A stretch of DNA of 64,000 bases from assembly GCA_025499705.1 (NCBI GenBank), contig JAFMVE010000003.1:1-64000 (forward strand). Reading direction: 5' to 3'. Below, in pieces: positions 11,048-37,837 of this stretch (position 1 is the first letter of the stretch; every line of letters starts with the position of its first letter). The notes below the pieces were generated by a model, which saw only the letters and a list, made by a program, of their open reading frames with translations, ran no database searches and was not told the DNA's origin. A program made the translations under genes and the position numbers. The stretch comes from Carboxylicivirga caseinilyticus (GTDB taxonomy: Bacteria; Bacteroidota; Bacteroidia; Bacteroidales; Marinilabiliaceae).

Positions 11048-11116
11048 TGTAACGTACACTAAAATTTATGTAACGAGAGTATAAATGGCTTAACTAAATG
11101 TAAACTTGTTGTTACG
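11048..11116 (+). promoter_or_regulatory. Candidate HTCS operator: phased TGTWACS half-sites
   Basis: TGTAACG occurs at 11048-11054 and again at 11069-11075. A weaker CTTAACT follows at 11089 and TGTTACG at 11110-11116. Start-to-start spacings are 21, 20 and 21 bp, two helical turns, as expected for tandem AraC-type half-sites. The same motif pair with 21-bp spacing lies upstream of the gene at 21413. Binding by the HTCS is inference. Confidence 0.55.
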
Positions 11117-16080: not shown

Positions 16081-17550
16081 ATGAATCTGCATCAGGATAA
16101 AATCAGCAAGATTGAAAAAATTGGATATAGTTTGGGTGATTTAGCTGCCAACCTTATTTTCCAGACTTTAATGACATTTCTTGCCTTTTTCTATACAGAT
16201 GTTTATCAAATTTCACCGTCGTGGTCGTCAATTATCATTTTTGTGGGCGGTATTACCGGAAGTTTATTCAACCCCTTAATGGGAATAATTGCGGACAGAA
16301 CGCGTACTCGCTGGGGGAAATTCAGGCCTTGGTTGCTTTGGACTTCTATTCCTTTGGGAGTTGTGGGGATTCTGGCATTTAGTACTCCAGATTTTAGTGA
16401 TACAGGTAAGGTTATCTATGCCATGTCGACCTATATTTTGCTAATGGCAGTGTATGCATCCAATAATGTGCCTTACACCTCATTGAGTGGAGTGATCACC
16501 GGAAATATGTCGGAACGTAACAGCATTACATCTTATCGTTTTGTGGCGGTGATGGTTGCTCAGTTTATAATTCAGGTATTACTGCTGCCTTTGGTTTTGA
16601 TAATGGGTGATGGTGATAAAGCGCAAGGTTTTCACGAAATTTTTATTCTGTTTGCATGTGCTGGTAGTATCATGTTTTTAATTGCTTTTTTCACAACCAA
16701 AGAACGCATCGCTCCTTCTGCAAAACAGAAATCCAGCATAAAAACAGATGTTAAAGATGTATTTAAAAATAAACCATGGATTAGCATGTTGATTGCCATT
16801 GTTCTACTGTTTGTAGCAATGGGAATTCGTAATGGATCAAATGTTTATTACTTTTCTTATTATCTTGATGAGGGGCAGTTAAGTATATTTCTTAACGGAT
16901 TGGGTTTCTATGGTTTTATTGAATGGCTGGATCGTGTGTCAAAAGCTATGGGATTTATTGGTTTTAACTGGCCGGAAGATACATCTACTACAGCATTTAG
17001 CTTGTATAGTGCAGTCAGTATTTTATTTAAGTTAACCGGGATTGTTATTTCCAAACGCCTGGCAGATAAGTATGGGAAAAGGAATATTTTCGGTATAAGT
17101 CTGTTCTTTTCTGCTCTGTTTTTATCAGCCTATTATTTTTATTCGCCGAAGGCAATTGTATTGGTTTTTGTTACACAAGCTTTTTATGGTTTGAGTATTG
17201 GATTACTGATGCCTCTATTATGGGCTATGGTTGCCGATGTTGTTGATTATTCGGAATGGAAGACAAGAAGAAGAGCAACGGCGACTGTTTTTTCAATAAC
17301 ATCGTTAGGGTTTAAAGTTGGTTTGAGCATTGGTGGAAGCTTGGTAGCCGGTATTTTATTTTTATATGGTTATGATGTAGATATGGATCATTCAATGAAG
17401 GTGCAGAATGGTGTAAAAATGTTGATAAGTATATATCCGGCTTTAGCCTCCTTTATTGGTGTTATAAGTCTTTACTTTTATGAGATAAACAAAAAAATGG
17501 AGCAACAAATAGAAAACGATTTAAGATTAAGAAGACTCAATGATGAATAA
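16081..17550 (+). CDS. GPH-family sugar:cation symporter (xyloside transporter type), copy 1
   Basis: This 489-residue integral membrane protein has about 12 hydrophobic helices. It carries the glycoside-pentoside-hexuronide (GPH) signatures GYSLGDLAAN near the N-terminus, MGIIADRTRTRWGKFRPW after helix 2, and MVADVVDYSEWKTRRRA late in the sequence. GPH symporters such as MelB and XynP import small glycosides with H+ or Na+. Placed between GH67 and GH10 genes and before a cytoplasmic GH43, it probably imports xylobiose, xylose or aldouronates. It is closely related to the gene at 31361, its paralogue at the far end of the locus. Substrate is inferred from context. Confidence 0.92.
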   Translation: MNLHQDKISKIEKIGYSLGDLAANLIFQTLMTFLAFFYTDVYQISPSWSSIIIFVGGITGSLFNPLMGIIADRTRTRWGKFRPWLLWTSIPLGVVGILAFSTPDFSDTGKVIYAMSTYILLMAVYASNNVPYTSLSGVITGNMSERNSITSYRFVAVMVAQFIIQVLLLPLVLIMGDGDKAQGFHEIFILFACAGSIMFLIAFFTTKERIAPSAKQKSSIKTDVKDVFKNKPWISMLIAIVLLFVAMGIRNGSNVYYFSYYLDEGQLSIFLNGLGFYGFIEWLDRVSKAMGFIGFNWPEDTSTTAFSLYSAVSILFKLTGIVISKRLADKYGKRNIFGISLFFSALFLSAYYFYSPKAIVLVFVTQAFYGLSIGLLMPLLWAMVADVVDYSEWKTRRRATATVFSITSLGFKVGLSIGGSLVAGILFLYGYDVDMDHSMKVQNGVKMLISIYPALASFIGVISLYFYEINKKMEQQIENDLRLRRLNDE

Positions 17551-31360: not shown

Positions 31361-32821
31361 ATGAGTACCGCATCACAAAAGATTTCGTTAGGCGAGAAGA
31401 TTGGGTATAGCTTAGGTGACCTGGCTGCCAATCTGGTTTTTCAAACCTTAATCACTTATCTGGCCTTTTTTTACACTGATATTTATGGACTGGAGAATAA
31501 TGATGCCTCGCTGATTATGCTGATTGTTGGCTTGGTGGCTGCCTTCTCTTTTAATCCTGTAATTGGTGTCTTGGCCGACAGAACAAGATCCAGATGGGGC
31601 AAGTTTAGGCCTTGGATCTTATATTCGTCTGTGCCTCTTGGTGTAATGGCACTGTTGGCATTCAGTACCCCTGATTTTGCTTACAAAGGTAAATTGATTT
31701 ATGCAGCAGTAACTTATACCTTGTTGCTCCTATTATATGCCAGCAGTAACCTTCCATATTCAGCACTAAGTGGAGTGATTACAGGTGACATGGCTGAAAG
31801 AAACAGTATCTCTTCAATTCGTTTTGTAGCGGTTATGTTCGCCCAGTTTTTTGTTCAGGTTTTTATGCTGCCCATCATTGAATATGCCGGAGGTGGTGAT
31901 AAAGCTGCCGGAATTGAGCAGGTAATTACCTGGATGGCTATTGTAGGTACCATCATGTTGTTAATTACATTTTTTACTACCAAAGAAAGAATCGTTCCTT
32001 CATCAGAACAGGAATCTTCATTAAAAAATGATCTATCCGATTTGGTAAAAAACAGGCCATGGATCATTATGCTTATCCTGACTGTTTTGGTGTTTGTAAC
32101 ACTGGCTATGAAAGGTGGTTCGTATGTTTATTATTTCAATTACTATGTTGATGAAGTTGCCTTGGCGTCTTTCATAAGTCCTATTCTCCATTTTTTTGAT
32201 AGTGTGGGAATGAATTTCTTTGGTTCTGATCCAACATCAGCAGGCTTTGGACTTTTTAATGCCGGAGGCATAATTTTTATGCTGATTGGAATAGCCTTTT
32301 CAAAGAGATTAGCCGACAGGTTTGGAAAAAGAGATGTATTTGGAATATCCTTGTTTATTTCAACTTTGTTCATCCTTGCCTTTGTTTTATTTCCACCTAA
32401 AGGAGTTGGCTGGATGTTTATTTCACAGGTTTTTCATGGATTTTTCTATGGTATTACCACTCCCTTATTATGGGCAATGATTGCTGATGTGGCTGATTAC
32501 TCAGAGTGGAAGAATAACAGAAGGGCCACAGCAATTATTTTTTCAGCCATGATGATGGGCCTAAAAGCAGGATTATCGATTGGTGGGGCATTGGTAGCAT
32601 GGATTTTAGGATTGTACGGATATGTAAATGCAGCATCATGCTTGGGTAATGAATTGATTCAGCCCGAAACTGTTTCCACTGGATCAAAAATGTTGATTAG
32701 TGTATTTGCTGCAATTCCATTCTTAATTGGTGTTATCCTCCTGTTCTTTTACAAGATAAATAAGTCAATGGAGGTGCAGATTGAACAGGAATTGGTTCAA
32801 CGAAGAAATAATGAAAAGTAG
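31361..32821 (+). CDS. GPH-family sugar:cation symporter, copy 2
   Basis: This 486-residue protein has about 12 membrane helices. It has the same GPH landmarks as the gene at 16081: GYSLGDLAANLVFQTLITY, VLADRTRSRWGKFRPW and MIADVADYSEWKNNRRA. The two are clearly paralogues, similar along their whole length. They differ most in the periplasmic loop in the middle (about residues 260-300), which often shapes substrate choice. It has its own 295-bp upstream region and a bidirectional terminator, so it may be induced separately. Probable substrates are xylosides or uronic acids such as glucuronate; the neighbouring uronate genes make the latter attractive but unproven. Confidence 0.92.
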   Translation: MSTASQKISLGEKIGYSLGDLAANLVFQTLITYLAFFYTDIYGLENNDASLIMLIVGLVAAFSFNPVIGVLADRTRSRWGKFRPWILYSSVPLGVMALLAFSTPDFAYKGKLIYAAVTYTLLLLLYASSNLPYSALSGVITGDMAERNSISSIRFVAVMFAQFFVQVFMLPIIEYAGGGDKAAGIEQVITWMAIVGTIMLLITFFTTKERIVPSSEQESSLKNDLSDLVKNRPWIIMLILTVLVFVTLAMKGGSYVYYFNYYVDEVALASFISPILHFFDSVGMNFFGSDPTSAGFGLFNAGGIIFMLIGIAFSKRLADRFGKRDVFGISLFISTLFILAFVLFPPKGVGWMFISQVFHGFFYGITTPLLWAMIADVADYSEWKNNRRATAIIFSAMMMGLKAGLSIGGALVAWILGLYGYVNAASCLGNELIQPETVSTGSKMLISVFAAIPFLIGVILLFFYKINKSMEVQIEQELVQRRNNEK

Positions 32822-32871: not shown

Positions 32872-32900
32872 AAGGAGTCAGTTAATAGCTGGCTCCTTTT
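32872..32900. terminator. Bidirectional terminator between symporter 2 and the acetylesterase
   Basis: A 10-bp stem (AAGGAGTCAG / CTGGCTCCTT, one G-T pair) with a 7-nt loop is followed by TTTT-rich sequence on the plus side. A second small hairpin (AACCAC/GTGGTT) lies at 32840-32855. Confidence 0.75.
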
Positions 32901-34824
32901 ATTTGATAATAATCCTAAAAGGAACAGCTGGTAATCCTGCTGAATTATAAAGATTAGCTTTATCCGGATTGTTGGCCCATGCATATCTTACTTCAACCGG
33001 ATGAGTAACATTTTCATGCCAGATAATAACTTTATCTTCAGTAATTTCCGCATTAGCCCAAATCAGACTTCCATTTTTATCGCGAATCGAAAATCCTTCT
33101 AGCTTATCACCCTTTTTTATTGAGAGTCCGTTGGCAATATTCTTAAAGCTCAATTCAACCTTTGATCCATTAAGTTGATACCCATCTATCACCGGACCTG
33201 AAGAAATCACTTCTTTTTGATAAGCAATCTTTTCAGCAGCAAGAGCAACCCTATAACCTACATCTTTTTTATTTAATGGATGAATATCATTCCATTCACC
33301 TAAATCGATGATATTTACACTGGTACAATTGGCTTGGTTGTTTGCAACATTGAATTGAGCTTCTCTTAATTGTGCCCAATTGCTTTCATTCGGAATACTA
33401 TCTGGTTCGAGGTAATTCGCAAGCTGAATGATAATAAAAGGCAGGTCTTCATGATTAAAAACTCTTCGCCAGTTTTTAACCATAGCTGTTAATCTTTCTT
33501 CGTATTGATCAGCATTATCAACATTGGATTCTCCCTGGTACCAAACAGCCCCTTTTATAGCATAATTGGTTAGTGGTGAAATCATCCCATTGAATAATCC
33601 TGCCGGTTTCCATCGAATAAAAGTAGGTCCTTCCAATGGGTTCATAGTAGCTCCAATCTTATATTTCCATTCACCTTCCAACGAAATGGTTTCTTCTTTT
33701 ACTCTGATCTCATATGGTTTATCAGGAACAAATCCACCTTGACCAATTTGCGAGATTACCTTAACAACAATTGTGTTTTCACCTTCCTGAAGAATATTTG
33801 AAGGAATCTGATAACGGCGGGGTGGATATTGATATGAAGTAGTACCCACAAAACGACCATTTACAAACACCGAATCTGCATCAACAATTCTACCCATATC
33901 CAATTCAGCCGGTTGGTTTGCCGATTGAGGAGAAAGTTGGAATGTTTTTCTATACCAGACTGCACCATTTACATTCAATAGTTCTCCTTCATCCCAATAA
34001 CCGGGCATATGGGTAGTTTTCCAGCTATTGTCATCCACATTCAATTCTGACCAGCCACTCTTATTACCTTCATCTTTTAATGCCAGTGATGTAAACCACT
34101 CATCTGTTCTCTGCTTATCACTTGCTTCAATATTACAGATTAAGGTAGAGTCTTTGAATCTCTGGAGTTCTTTATATGCGTCTTTAAATGGTTTTAGATC
34201 TTCTTCGCTTATCCATGCTTCAACAGGCGAACCGCCCAGACTTGAATTTATTATTCCAATCGGTACCTGCTCTGATTGTTGAATTTTATTGGCAAAGAAA
34301 TAAGCAACAGCCGAAAAATCCATAATATTCTCGGGTGAAGCAGACTTCCATTGTCCACCGGTTAAGTCACATTGCTGTTTGTTGAAATCATATTTGTAAG
34401 GAACCCTGAAATGCCGAATTCCGGTGTTATTTATTTTCTTTATTTCATCACGAAACCTGGGCTCAACTCTTTTGATGGATACTTCCATGTTGGATTGTCC
34501 CGAACATAACCAAACATCACCAACCAGAATATCATTTAAAATAATTTGATTGGAACCGGTTAGCTTCATTGAAAATGGTCCACCTGGCTTTTGGGCAGGC
34601 ATTATTACCTGCCATTTGCCATTTTTATCTGCATTTGTAGTGAGAATCTTATTTTTAAATTCAATTTTAATGGATTCATCCGGTGAAGCCCATCCCCAAA
34701 GGGTGATAGGAACATCACGCTGAAGCACCATACCGTCACTTATTAATTTAGGAAGCCTGATCTGAGCTGAAACAGGCAGAAATAATAGGGTATATAAAAT
34801 TGCAATAAATAAGATTCTCTTCAT
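32899..34824 (-). CDS. SGNH/SASA-family acetylesterase (sialate-O-acetylesterase-like, probable acetylxylan esterase)
   Basis: This 641-residue protein has a signal peptide ending in VSAQ. Its SASA-type SGNH esterase fold is split by a galactose-binding-like jelly-roll (about 285-400; TFQLSPQSANQPAELDMGR). The nucleophile Ser111 is in WLCSGQSNME, an oxyanion/block III region is in GAVWYQGESNVDN, and the Asp/His pair lies in WNDIHPLN. Such enzymes were first named 9-O-acetylsialate esterases, but close relatives in xylan loci (CE20-like) deacetylate xylan. No sialic acid genes are nearby, so acetylxylan or acetylated xylo-oligosaccharide is the better guess. It begins 10 bp after uxuA and is co-transcribed. 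Confidence 0.87.
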   Translation of the reverse strand: MKRILFIAILYTLLFLPVSAQIRLPKLISDGMVLQRDVPITLWGWASPDESIKIEFKNKILTTNADKNGKWQVIMPAQKPGGPFSMKLTGSNQIILNDILVGDVWLCSGQSNMEVSIKRVEPRFRDEIKKINNTGIRHFRVPYKYDFNKQQCDLTGGQWKSASPENIMDFSAVAYFFANKIQQSEQVPIGIINSSLGGSPVEAWISEEDLKPFKDAYKELQRFKDSTLICNIEASDKQRTDEWFTSLALKDEGNKSGWSELNVDDNSWKTTHMPGYWDEGELLNVNGAVWYRKTFQLSPQSANQPAELDMGRIVDADSVFVNGRFVGTTSYQYPPRRYQIPSNILQEGENTIVVKVISQIGQGGFVPDKPYEIRVKEETISLEGEWKYKIGATMNPLEGPTFIRWKPAGLFNGMISPLTNYAIKGAVWYQGESNVDNADQYEERLTAMVKNWRRVFNHEDLPFIIIQLANYLEPDSIPNESNWAQLREAQFNVANNQANCTSVNIIDLGEWNDIHPLNKKDVGYRVALAAEKIAYQKEVISSGPVIDGYQLNGSKVELSFKNIANGLSIKKGDKLEGFSIRDKNGSLIWANAEITEDKVIIWHENVTHPVEVRYAWANNPDKANLYNSAGLPAVPFRIIIK

Positions 34825-34834
34825 CGTAACTAAA

Positions 34835-36037
34835 TTAAATAAAGTTGCTGATTCCAGCCATCAAACCATCCAGCTCCGCCAAACCTTTAAGTCTTCCAAT
34901 CAATGGATAACCCGGATTGTATTTGTTGTTGTAATCATCCAGTATTTTAATTCCATGATCAGGACGAACCGGCATTTTAGTATCTTTTCTTCCTTCACCT
35001 TCTCTTCTCTTTTGTTCTTTTAAAAGAGCTGTCATTATTTGAACCATATTCTGACTGCCTGCCAAATGTCCTGATTCATAAAAACTACCATCAGGCAGAA
35101 GCTGAGTATTACGTAAATGTACAAAATGTATCCGCTCACTACAGTGATTTATGATCTCAACAAGATTGTTTTCTTTTCGTGCAGAAAGAGACCCGGCACA
35201 AAAAGTAACACCATTGTTAGGAGATGAGTTAGCCTTAAACAACCATTCATAATCGTCTAATTGCCCAATGATACGGGGTAAGCCTAAAACAGGAAATGGT
35301 GGATCATCTGGGTGAATTGCAAGGCGAACGCCTGCTTCTTCAGCTACAGGTATTACATCATCCAGAAAAGCTTTCAGGTTTTCACGCATTTTGTTTTTAT
35401 CGTATCCCTTATAACGGTCAATAAATTCAAGAAATAATTTCTTCGGATCGGGTACGCTACCATCTATAACTCCATCAATAAATCCCTGGGTAACAACAAT
35501 AATGTTATATGCCAACTCTTCAGCTTCCTCTGTGGTCATGGAGGCATAAACCTGTTTTGCTTTTTCAATTATTTCGGCAGGATAATCTTTTTCAGCTCCC
35601 GGACGTTTTAGTATAAAGGCATCAAAGGCCACAAATGTGGGAAAATCGAAATACATTGATTCGCCTCCATTTGCTATTTTATAATGTAAATCTGTTCGGG
35701 CCCAGTCTAACACAGGCATAAAGTTATAGCAAATGGTATCGATGCCACATGCTCCCAGATTTCGGACACTTTGTTGATAGTTTTTAATCAGTCGGGCACG
35801 ATCGTCATTGCAAATTTTAATGCCTTCACTCACCGGCAAACTTTCAACAACACTCCATCTCAAACCATGACTTTCAATCAGGTTTTTTACTCTCATGATC
35901 TCATCAATCGACCATATCTCTCCGTTTGGAATATGATGTAAGGCTGTAATAACTCCTTCAACACCCATTTGAACAAGCATGTCAAGGGTGATAGGATCTT
36001 TCTCGCCAAACCATCTCCAGGTTTTTTCCAGTGCCAT
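34835..36037 (-). CDS. uxuA: Mannonate dehydratase
   Basis: This 400-residue cytosolic enzyme converts D-mannonate to 2-keto-3-deoxygluconate in the hexuronate pathway. The UxuA family is recognised by TWRWFGEKDPITL near the N-terminus, GVITALHHIPNGEIW, YNFMPVLDWARTDL, RLAIHPDDPPFP (metal and substrate binding), FCAGSLSARKEN and VHLRNTQ. Length is normal. It lies between the SDR gene upstream and the acetylesterase downstream on the same strand. With GH67 in the same locus, its substrate most likely derives from glucuronic acid side chains of xylan. The uronate isomerase needed one step earlier is not in this window. Confidence 0.97.
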   Translation of the reverse strand: MALEKTWRWFGEKDPITLDMLVQMGVEGVITALHHIPNGEIWSIDEIMRVKNLIESHGLRWSVVESLPVSEGIKICNDDRARLIKNYQQSVRNLGACGIDTICYNFMPVLDWARTDLHYKIANGGESMYFDFPTFVAFDAFILKRPGAEKDYPAEIIEKAKQVYASMTTEEAEELAYNIIVVTQGFIDGVIDGSVPDPKKLFLEFIDRYKGYDKNKMRENLKAFLDDVIPVAEEAGVRLAIHPDDPPFPVLGLPRIIGQLDDYEWLFKANSSPNNGVTFCAGSLSARKENNLVEIINHCSERIHFVHLRNTQLLPDGSFYESGHLAGSQNMVQIMTALLKEQKRREGEGRKDTKMPVRPDHGIKILDDYNNKYNPGYPLIGRLKGLAELDGLMAGISNFI

Positions 36038-36065
36038 AATATTAGTTTGTTAGTTTTTAAGTTAT

Positions 36066-36096
36066 CCCGCCACGATAGCTATCGTGGTATAGCGGG
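36066..36096. repeat. Palindromic REP-like hairpin between SDR and uxuA genes
   Basis: A perfect 16-bp palindrome (CACGATAGCTATCGTG, 36071-36086) is enclosed by CCCGC/GCGGG arms. It is GC-rich against an AT-rich background. It could set relative expression of the two genes or be a dispersed repeat. Confidence 0.65.
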
Positions 36097-36172
36097 AGGC
36101 AATCGTAATTCTAAACAGAAAATGTATTAAATTTTTACTGCTTTATCCTTCAATTAAGATTGGTGAATTTTA

Positions 36173-36979
36173 TTATACACCACTGAAAGAACTGAATCCT
36201 CCATCAACAGGTAGGATTACTCCTGTAATAAATGATGCAGCATCGGAACACAAAAACTGAACAGCTCCGTTTAATTCTTTGATATCGCCAAATCGTCTCA
36301 TAGGTGTACGTGCAATCACTTTTTGACTGCGTTCGGTATAGGTCCCATCCGGATTAATCAAAACTCTGCGATTCTGATCACCAATAAAGAAACCTGGTGC
36401 AATTGCATTAACCCTTATCTTCTCATTAAATTTCAGTGCCATTTCCATGGCCATCCATTGAGTAAAAATATTGATACCTGTTTTGGCTACCGAATATCCC
36501 GGAACTCTTGTGATGGCAGAATAGGTAGCCATTGATGATATGGTTATGATACTTCCTTCTCCCTGATCGGCCATAGCTTTTCCAAATACCAGGCTGGGGT
36601 AAACTGTACCATTTAAATTTAAATCGGTTACACGCTGAAAATCTTCAATCTTCATATCAAAAACAGTCTGGTTTTCCTCCAAAGTACCACCCGGAAGATT
36701 GCCTCCTGCTGTATTAATCAGAATATCAATACGTCCCCATTGATCCAATATTTCCTTACGAGTGTTTTTAAGAATATCCATGTCAAGAACATTCGAAACA
36801 AATCCTTTAACATCGCCGCCGATCTGTTTCAATTCTTCAACCCGATTGTTAACGTTTTCTTCCCGTATATCTAATATGGCAACTTTAACACCGGCCTCGA
36901 TTAAACTGCGGGCAATGCTTCCTCCCAAAACACCACCTCCACCTGTTACTACTGCTACTTTTCCTGATAGATCAAACAT
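36173..36979 (-). CDS. Short-chain dehydrogenase, probable D-fructuronate (mannonate) reductase
   Basis: This 268-residue protein has a classic SDR Rossmann start (VAVVTGGGGVLGGSIA), NTAGG after strand 4, and a catalytic Ser in ITISSMA followed by YSVAKTG with the Tyr and Lys. The C-terminal AAFFITGVILPVDGG-like end is typical. SDR proteins of this type encoded next to uxuA replace the long-chain UxuB, reducing fructuronate to mannonate. Here it is the first gene before uxuA and the acetylesterase. The start codon lies 11 bp downstream of an element shared with the Nudix-type regulator gene. SDR family is certain; the substrate is inferred from position. Confidence 0.87.
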   Translation of the reverse strand: MFDLSGKVAVVTGGGGVLGGSIARSLIEAGVKVAILDIREENVNNRVEELKQIGGDVKGFVSNVLDMDILKNTRKEILDQWGRIDILINTAGGNLPGGTLEENQTVFDMKIEDFQRVTDLNLNGTVYPSLVFGKAMADQGEGSIITISSMATYSAITRVPGYSVAKTGINIFTQWMAMEMALKFNEKIRVNAIAPGFFIGDQNRRVLINPDGTYTERSQKVIARTPMRRFGDIKELNGAVQFLCSDAASFITGVILPVDGGFSSFSGV

Positions 36980-36989
36980 GATTTTATTA

Positions 36990-37015
36990 TTATGCGTTAT
37001 GTGTACGTTATATAA
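36990..37015 (-). promoter_or_regulatory. Candidate operator of the uronate operon (shared with the Nudix-type regulator gene)
   Basis: This 26-bp stretch matches the one at 37680-37705 at 18 positions, including CGT-N7-TACGTTAWATAA. Each copy starts exactly 11 bp upstream of its gene's start codon. The Nudix-type regulator encoded next door is the obvious candidate to bind both. Confidence 0.55.
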
Positions 37016-37030
37016 ACAAGGTAAAATTTT

Positions 37031-37669
37031 TTAAACTGTGTTTCTCAGTCTGTAAAAAAAAGCCGGACGTTGCTGGCCACCTTTGGTTTTTTCTTGTAAT
37101 TTCTCGACCAAACCCATATTGATAACCTTCTTTCTAAAGTTACGATTGTCAATTTCTTCCTGCAATATTGTTTGATATAATTCCTGCAGTTGGTTTAATG
37201 GAAATTTTTCTGGCAATAAGTTGTGTAAAATGGGCTTACGCCATATTTCTTCTTTTAGCCAGCTTAATGATTTGTTAATCATTTTATTATGGTCGAATGG
37301 TAGTTCGCCTATCTGATCTGTTTCAAACCAGTTTACTTCTTTGGCATGCGAACCTGCCATCAATTCAAACAGTTCGGGTTTGATTAAGGCACAATATAAG
37401 ATAGAAACGATGCGACGATCAGGATAACGATCCAGTTCCCCAAAAACTTTTACCTGAGTAAGATATACCTCTTTAATACCTGTTAATTCAAATAAAATCC
37501 GTTTGGCAGCTTCGTCGATAGTTTCTTCCAGATAAACATATGATCCGGGCAGGGACCATTGATTGAGTGCGGGCTCTTTATCTCGTTTAATCAGTAATGA
37601 TTTTAGTTTACCATCTTCGTAACCGAAAATGGCACAGTCTACTGACAAGTTGATAATTTTTTCACCCAT
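37031..37669 (-). CDS. Nudix-domain transcriptional regulator (NrtR/AraR-type)
   Basis: This 212-residue protein has an N-terminal Nudix fold (about 1-135) and a C-terminal winged helix (about 145-210), the NrtR-family layout. The Nudix box is degenerate. Where GX5EX7REUXEEXGU is expected it reads GSYVYLEETIDEAAKRILFELTGI in two parts (GSYVYLEETIDEAAK, then RILFELTGI), so the RE and the first E of EE are lost. Catalysis is therefore unlikely and a sensing role likely. In Bacteroidota, relatives control sugar catabolism (arabinose in AraR). It is encoded upstream of the SDR-uxuA-esterase genes, so it probably regulates uronate use. The ligand may be a uronate-pathway intermediate; this is inference. 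Confidence 0.88.
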   Translation of the reverse strand: MGEKIINLSVDCAIFGYEDGKLKSLLIKRDKEPALNQWSLPGSYVYLEETIDEAAKRILFELTGIKEVYLTQVKVFGELDRYPDRRIVSILYCALIKPELFELMAGSHAKEVNWFETDQIGELPFDHNKMINKSLSWLKEEIWRKPILHNLLPEKFPLNQLQELYQTILQEEIDNRNFRKKVINMGLVEKLQEKTKGGQQRPAFFYRLRNTV

Positions 37670-37679
37670 GAATCTAATG

Positions 37680-37705
37680 TATTACGTCAAACATACGTTA
37701 AATAA
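37680..37705 (-). promoter_or_regulatory. Candidate operator/promoter of the Nudix-type regulator gene
   Basis: The second copy of the 26-bp element lies 11 bp before the start codon. On the minus strand it contains TATGTTTG (37688-37695), an exact TAnnTTTG -7 box. Binding here would block its own promoter, suggesting autorepression. Confidence 0.55.
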
Positions 37706-37837
37706 TAATTTCTTCCAAATTAAAGTAAATTATTTTGATTTAATATTTAAATAAAAGTATAGTAATGTTATGAAATATAGAAATTTAAATAGTTTATTCT
37801 GGAATGTTTCTAGAATGATATTTAAATAAGAACAGAC

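Follow-up and report, generated by a model that had tools for sequence, protein, structure and literature searches.

A 26-bp element occurs twice in the stretch of Carboxylicivirga caseinilyticus DNA analyzed here (the window, 64,000 nucleotides), once before the gene of a Nudix-type regulator and once before the SDR gene that follows it. Is this element the operator of the regulator, as the initial annotation proposed, and if so, which residues of the protein select it and what signal might release it? The features that bear on these questions are listed from upstream to downstream.

37716 to 37719, minus strand: -33 box TTTG, 20 nt upstream of the -7 box, read from the sequence
37688 to 37695, minus strand: -7 box TATGTTTG (TAnnTTTG) inside O1, read from the sequence
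37684 to 37698, minus strand: core of predicted operator O1, ACGT-N7-ACGT, upstream of the regulator gene; in 11 of 11 orthologous loci
37031 to 37669, minus strand: NrtR-family regulator of the AraR type, degenerate Nudix domain plus winged helix (Pfam NUDIX, NrtR_WHD and AraR_C; BtAraR 5bs6)
36994 to 37008, minus strand: core of predicted operator O2, ACGT-N7-ACGC, within the 51 bp that separate regulator and SDR; present at all 11 orthologous loci
36173 to 36979, minus strand: SDR, D-mannonate oxidoreductase (fructuronate reductase step; NF006132, 365.6 bits against a cut-off of 281)
34835 to 36037, minus strand: uxuA, mannonate dehydratase (PF03786 and TIGR00695 above cut-off)
32899 to 34824, minus strand: SASA-domain esterase (PF03629), starting 10 bp after uxuA

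The esterase is possibly the last gene of the regulator-SDR-uxuA operon. A xylan locus lies on the opposite strand, with GH3, GH67 alpha-glucuronidase, two GH10 and GH43 genes, SusC/SusD-like genes and a gene for a glycan-binding protein, and is adjoined by a hybrid two-component regulator. The likely substrate of such a set of genes is glucuronoxylan, and the glucuronate freed from it would be handled by the small operon. Two GPH-type transporters of the xylan locus (31361-32821 and 16081-17550; TIGR00792 above cut-off) are candidates for the uptake of uronate or oligosaccharide; there is no match to the strict operator pattern given below upstream of either. The gap between SDR and uxuA contains a strong hairpin (window 36064-36098) around CCCGCCACGATAGCTATCGTGG (36066-36087). 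The minus strand of 36038-36172 folds with a z of -2.87, and a scan of the window with Rfam gave nothing at gathering score. The 22-mer of the hairpin occurs 5 times in the genome at up to two mismatches and its reversed control not once, and it looks like a small dispersed repeat.

Both copies of the element sit where the initial annotation had put them, at 36990-37015 and 37680-37705 on the minus strand. On recount they agree at 17 of 26 positions rather than the 18 claimed, and the distance from element to ATG is 10 bp in both copies, not 11 bp. This equality of distance holds in the present genome and is a coincidence when 11 genomes are compared, since the interval from core to ATG varies from 13 to 21 bp at the regulator and from 9 to 17 bp at the SDR. 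When the two upstream regions were shuffled with preservation of dinucleotides, an equally good 26-mer match arose in 92 of 1000 shuffles at any offset, and in 5 of 1000 where the same offset was required. By itself the resemblance between the copies is thus modest and weak evidence; the reality of the element comes from conservation, which reveals its form as a half-palindromic ACGT-N7-ACG(T/C).

A search for the regulator in the 71 genomes of the family (the present one included) gave five further orthologs with 68-79% identity. Searching with an alignment of the six regulators added five more, from Labilibaculum and a Marinifilaceae MAG; the records L094, L095 and L100 were left out of the count, their lengths being those of contigs counted already. 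The initial annotation had tied its proposal to conservation of the element before orthologous genes, and this is what we find, with both sites present in 11 of 11 genomes. The site in each region was chosen as the best fit to ACGT-N7-ACGT in the upstream 90 bp or in the gap. All 22 sites keep CGTA-N6-ACG, preceded by A in 20 of them and by G in the other 2. The order regulator, SDR, uxuA is the same in all 11 genomes, with a gap of 47-54 bp between regulator and SDR that holds the second site; in L006/L100 uxuA begins about 600 bp after the SDR. Four distant relatives of the regulator (27-32% identity), also found by the alignment search, are without such a site.

Does the element belong to the regulator, or to the enzyme genes? 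The SDR protein has 31 matches (E up to 1e-80), one each in 31 of the 71 genomes, and the 30 with loci served as a control. A site precedes the SDR at all 6 loci where the regulator is its neighbor, as against 1 of the 24 where it is not; the lone exception reads GCGT-N7-ACGG and is 168 bp upstream. The conclusion that emerges from this co-occurrence is that the element tracks the regulator gene rather than the SDR or uxuA gene.

The strict pattern WWACGTANNNNNNACGYWW, drawn up from sites that include O1 and O2, has 3 matches on both strands of the 5,647,717-bp genome, of which two are O1 and O2, and 10 matches when reversed as a control. The third strict match falls within a coding ORF, which we take to be that of elongation factor Tu; the third exact match of the 16-mer falls within a 673-aa ORF. 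Elsewhere in the genome the strict pattern is thus all but missing, which suggests a regulon of this single operon. With one mismatch allowed there are 98 matches, against 328 for the reversed control, and therefore no further targets are claimed from the looser pattern. UxaC is the first enzyme of the pathway and might be a target as well; its gene lies on another contig (C60), and no site within one mismatch is listed before it. The initial annotation had also suggested cross-control of GH3 from a shared 10-mer at 11050. The 10-mer does occur at that position, and apart from the SDR copy the window has no further exact match, but what it forms is a lone half-site, ACGT-N7-AATT, with the second half-site missing, so that control of GH3 is unsupported. 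The same GH3 upstream region contains TAACG twice, 21 bp apart (window 11050-11075), a pair at which the hybrid two-component regulator close by, and not the NrtR-type regulator, might bind.

Might the pair of elements be a chance resemblance in AT-rich DNA? For the two sequences alone the any-offset shuffles make this a fair question, and it is answered by the retention of the site in all 11 genomes and its near absence where the regulator gene is missing; we count chance as already refuted and give it a vanishingly small probability. It is also highly improbable that the elements serve a different protein, for example a Crp-like global regulator or a two-component one, with the NrtR-type regulator merely nearby. 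A Crp-like palindrome does co-occur with AraR and XylR operons in Bacteroides, as described in a study of that genus (PMC3878776), but the Crp motif as given there differs in sequence from ours. Moreover, the site follows the regulator gene, and a global factor fits poorly with a strict pattern that is almost missing from the remainder of the genome. Conservation, co-occurrence with the regulator gene and an AraR-like protein architecture together support the original designation of the element as the operator of the Nudix-type regulator.

The position of O1 suggests how it may act. The initial annotation had noted a -7 box overlapping the copy at 37680, and TATGTTTG does lie within O1; we take it to be a -7 box from the presumed Bacteroidota promoter consensus TAnnTTTG. 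The promoter comparison covered nine of the eleven ortholog sequences. TAnnTTTG is kept in L002 and L003, with TTTG or ATTG 20 and 19 nt upstream, while L004, L005 and L006 have near matches to the -7 box and TTTG or ATTG 20-21 nt upstream. An upstream box at a fitting distance is present in one of the three Labilibaculum sequences compared. No promoter was identified at O2 when one was looked for there. Because O1 covers the -7 box, repression is the natural reading.

The domain models place the protein in the NrtR family (Pfam NUDIX 42.3 bits, cut-off 21.1; NrtR_WHD 84.8, cut-off 27). BtAraR (5bs6) is the closest solved relative, with an E value of 4.4e-50 over residues 7-209; the match to the NAD-type NrtR 3gz5 is weaker (E 1.3e-19), and the score with the model of the ADP-ribose-responsive repressor NtrR, NF050029, is 126.8 bits, below its cut-off of 400. 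The Nudix box has the motif GX5EX7REUXEEXGU (PMC4666351). That of the regulator is degenerate, as first observed in the initial annotation, and has the form S43-X5-E49-X7-R57-I-L-F-E61-L-T-G64-I; Ile and Leu stand in place of two of the four glutamates, and Ser in place of the first Gly. In AraR, L-arabinose is held by Arg34, Arg86 and His131, and Phe36 belongs to the hydrophobic environment around C4 and C5, as the structure paper describes (PMC4666351). The first three positions are kept in the regulator. At position 36 all 11 orthologs have Lys, and the paralog beside araA has Phe. A lysine close to C5 would be a good partner for the carboxylate of a hexuronate. Lys36 is also found in relatives that are not beside SDR-uxuA (L069, L070, L075, L076 and L080), and therefore it is by itself no mark of a uronate pocket. 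A structure prediction of the regulator from six sequences reached a mean pLDDT of only 45.5 and was set aside as poor. That the regulator senses a uronate intermediate, as had been suggested, is plausible, and the ligand would be a hexuronate or ketohexuronate.

Two further alternatives concern the action and the signal of the regulator rather than its site. Activation from O1 and O2 seems quite improbable to us, as the cover of the -7 box by O1 is a position that fits repression. A different ligand, such as ADP-ribose or a phosphorylated sugar, by which the regulator would bind both sites and link uronate use to another signal, is unlikely, if less so than activation. Lys36 could bind phosphate, and is present also in L075, where the gene that follows is presumably one for phosphoribosyl pyrophosphate synthetase, read by eye. 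It also speaks for another ligand that the regulator belongs to the NrtR family, whose NAD-type members respond to ADP-ribose (PMC4666351). The same paper reports that AraR is released by its own sugar, which speaks against activation too. Against another ligand stand the linkage of the regulator to SDR-uxuA in 11 of 11 genomes, the rank of AraR above 3gz5 among solved relatives and the score far under the cut-off of the NCBIfam ADP-ribose model. We thus prefer a repressor that answers to a uronate.

How, then, would the protein distinguish its operator from those of its relatives? A search with the regulator counts eight matches in this genome; among the five listed, the fifth spans the Nudix part alone. 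The four full-length NrtR-type regulators among those listed have four different half-sites, those of the three paralogs being as follows, with the residue pair at positions 179-180 in AraR numbering.

Paralog L109, beside araA: Thr-Gly, TAGT-N7-ACTA
Paralog beside galT-galK: Pro-Gly, AAGT-N7-ACTT
Paralog beside a GPH transporter with a GH94 gene: Lys-Arg, GTGT-N7-ACAC

Near some of these genes there are also NNNN-N7 palindromes of a less regular kind. L109 has Arg34 and Phe36 as in AraR, yet its Thr-Gly pair and TAGT operator are unlike those of Bacteroides AraR; evolution of the pocket may be independent of that of DNA specificity.

The crystal structure of AraR with DNA contains the operator GTGT-N7-ACAC, and residues touching it include Lys179, Arg180, Asn181, Lys184 and Ser163 (PMC4666351). 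Positions 179 and 163 of AraR correspond to residues 175 and 159 of the present regulator. Across 243 related regulators the half-site follows residue 179, with Lys or Arg mostly accompanied by TGT and Asn by CGT. The first set comprised 85 regulators and then 135 representatives (<90% identity) out of 185, and all 256 tetramers were scanned as X-N7-X' in some 220 bp upstream. GTGT was found in 41 of 61 regulators with Lys179-Arg180 and in 6 of 11 with Arg179-Arg180, AAGT in 16 of 26 with Pro-Gly, ACGT in 8 of 11 with Asn-Arg and TAGT in 4 of 4 with Thr-Gly, the shuffled expectation being no greater than 0.2 for each class.

The prediction that Asn179 goes with ACGT was written down before the second set was fetched, which consisted of 131 further loci with 136 regulators, 108 of them new at the 90% level. 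CGT-N7-ACG is present in 14 of 15 Asn-Arg regulators of this set as against 0 of 49 Lys-Arg regulators, 30 of which have TGT-N7-ACA (Fisher p 2.7e-11, taken over regulators with one site type only and ignoring kinship). The written prediction was only partly right: of the 15 new Asn179-Arg180 regulators 7 have a perfect palindrome, 2 with ACGT and 5 with GCGT. The CGT form of the rule was worded after part of the second set had been seen, and for this form the second set is not blind. The prediction for Lys held, with GTGT in 25 of 45 new DKRN regulators and ACGT or GCGT in none; 18 of the others are without an NNGT palindrome and 2 have another one. That for Arg-Arg held less well (8 new regulators: 2 GTGT, 1 GCGT, 5 none). 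Pairs at 179-180 that had not been predicted gave an AGT site in 5 of 14 Lys-Pro and 4 of 10 Lys-Ser regulators and a TTGT palindrome in 3 of 4 with Lys-Gly, and Lys-Ala showed no clear site.

With both sets taken together, 24 of 26 Asn179-Arg180 regulators have a CGT site at spacer 7, and none at spacers 4, 5, 6, 8, 9 or 10; controls gave 0.55 in shuffles and 0 inside the gene. The Lys signal is also greatest at spacer 7 (80 of 110, shuffles 8.45), with 27 at spacer 9 and no more than 10 at others. No TGT site is seen in 30 of the 110 Lys-Arg regulators, and a CGT site stands beside a TGT site in 1 of 110 Lys-Arg and 1 of 20 Arg-Arg regulators. Two Asn179 regulators, L039 and L242, lack a CGT site; L039 belongs to a third branch, and none is present in its 3.6-kb locus. 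Among the 107 regulators with Arg180, Asn, Lys or Arg at 179 and one site type, CGT accompanies Asn in 22 of 22 and TGT accompanies Lys or Arg in 85 of 85. When alignment columns were scored over 122 one-type regulators in AraR numbering, column 179 separated the operator types completely and column 163 was second best at 97.5%, against 80.3% without any column, a residue seen only once counting as correct by construction. Both columns touch DNA in AraR. Within the Asn/Ser179 class the first base is A in 25 of 28 half-sites with Asn163 and G in 18 of 26 with Arg163, a pattern that was noticed afterwards in the same data.

On a tree from which the recognition-helix columns were left out, the residue changes four times and so does the operator (107 regulators counted). 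There are three supported independent pairs, all concordant, for which a sign test gives p 0.25, the minimum possible with three pairs. The association between residue and base thus rests on few independent events. L277 is placed within the second Asn clade (support 82-88) but carries Lys together with a TGT operator, as would be expected of a reversion. In L205 1-1365 (minus strand), a second-lineage regulator with Asn179 and an ACGT operator lies beside a gene of the mannitol dehydrogenase family whose best models are D-arabinitol 4-dehydrogenase and fructuronate reductase, both below cut-off. Its genome, G046, also has a uxu-type regulator (L005), and the two could share operators.

We consider it probable, with some reserve, that the NrtR-type sugar regulators of Bacteroidota follow a recognition code in which the frame NNGT-N7-ACNN is fixed, residues 179-180 would set base 2 and residue 163 would help to set base 1, such that operators could be predicted and paralogs coexist. 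The assignments that this code would comprise are T for Lys/Arg-Arg, C for Asn-Arg and A for Pro/Thr-Gly at base 2, and, within the Asn179 class, A for Asn163 and G for Arg163 at base 1.

For binding, repression, the role of O2 and the ligand we infer the following. A dimer of the regulator would bind ACGT-N7-ACG(T/C). At O1 it would cover the -7 box of its own promoter and so repress the regulator and the SDR-uxuA genes behind it, while at O2, in the gap between regulator and SDR, it would block read-through or an internal promoter and thereby tighten expression of the enzymes separately from that of the regulator. The dead Nudix pocket would bind a pathway uronate, with D-glucuronate or D-fructuronate as the likeliest, and the DNA would then be freed, in parallel with the release of AraR by L-arabinose. 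Asn179, and probably also Asn163, would give the half-site ACGT instead of the GTGT of AraR, and this would keep the regulator apart from three NrtR-type sugar paralogs of the same genome. Taken as a whole, we regard as very likely the explanation that the adjacent AraR-type NrtR regulator represses through O1 and O2, that a uronate releases it and that residues 179 and 163 set the half-site.

This would add a uronate branch to a family of regulators reported for NAD, arabinose and xylose. The residue-base association makes recognition testable by changes of one residue and two bases. If the code is true, operators could be assigned from protein sequence to unstudied NrtR-type sugar regulators of Bacteroidota, and the uronate, galactose, arabinose and oligosaccharide paralogs would coexist as each reads a different half-site. 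The literature searched contained no publication on an NrtR-type uronate regulator or on such a recognition code. PMC5045206, citing a 2009 structure paper, states that correlations between protein and site had been studied in the NrtR family, and for NAD-type NrtR a part of such a code may thus have been published before.

Several known systems resemble the one described here. XylR of Bacteroides (BT0791) is also an NrtR-type sugar regulator, and is compared here through relatives with Asn179. L235, L239, L267, L285 and their relatives are XylR-like regulators; the gene that follows was read by eye in these four and is presumably that of xylulokinase in 4 of 4. CGT operators occur in that lineage too, and several of its regulators have TTAGCGTATTTTTTACGCTAA-type operators followed by AAGTTTG. 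The lineage is nevertheless separate on the tree, with Arg163 in most members and a first base that is often G. The NrtR of NAD metabolism (Shewanella oneidensis; PDB 3gz5) has the same family and domain order as the regulator, but it responds to ADP-ribose (PMC4666351) and its match is weaker than that of AraR. UxuR, UxaR and KdgR of Bacteroides also control the use of glucuronate and galacturonate, as described in PMC3878776, but they belong to another protein family, that of LacI.

The nearest known system is AraR of Bacteroides thetaiotaomicron (BT0354; PDB 5bs6, 5dd4, 5ddg and 5deq), of the NrtR family, which has the same two-domain architecture over the whole length. The two have in common the degenerate Nudix box and a half-palindromic operator with 4-bp half-sites and a 7-bp spacer, and Asp178, Arg180, Asn181, Arg183 and Lys184 of AraR are kept in the regulator. 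AraR orthologs are described as conserving the DNA contacts Lys179, Arg180, Asn181, Lys184, Lys204 and Arg205 (PMC4666351), whereas in the regulator residue 179 is Asn and residue 204 is Gln, and the half-site is ACGT rather than GTGT. In the pocket, Phe36 of AraR is replaced by Lys and Gly48-Phe49 by Ser-Tyr. The gene context differs likewise, since the regulator adjoins the uronate genes SDR-uxuA in 11 of 11 genomes rather than arabinose genes, and the neighbor of araA is a different paralog, L109. As judged from its sequence and setting, the regulator is a probable uronate variant of the AraR-type NrtR regulators.
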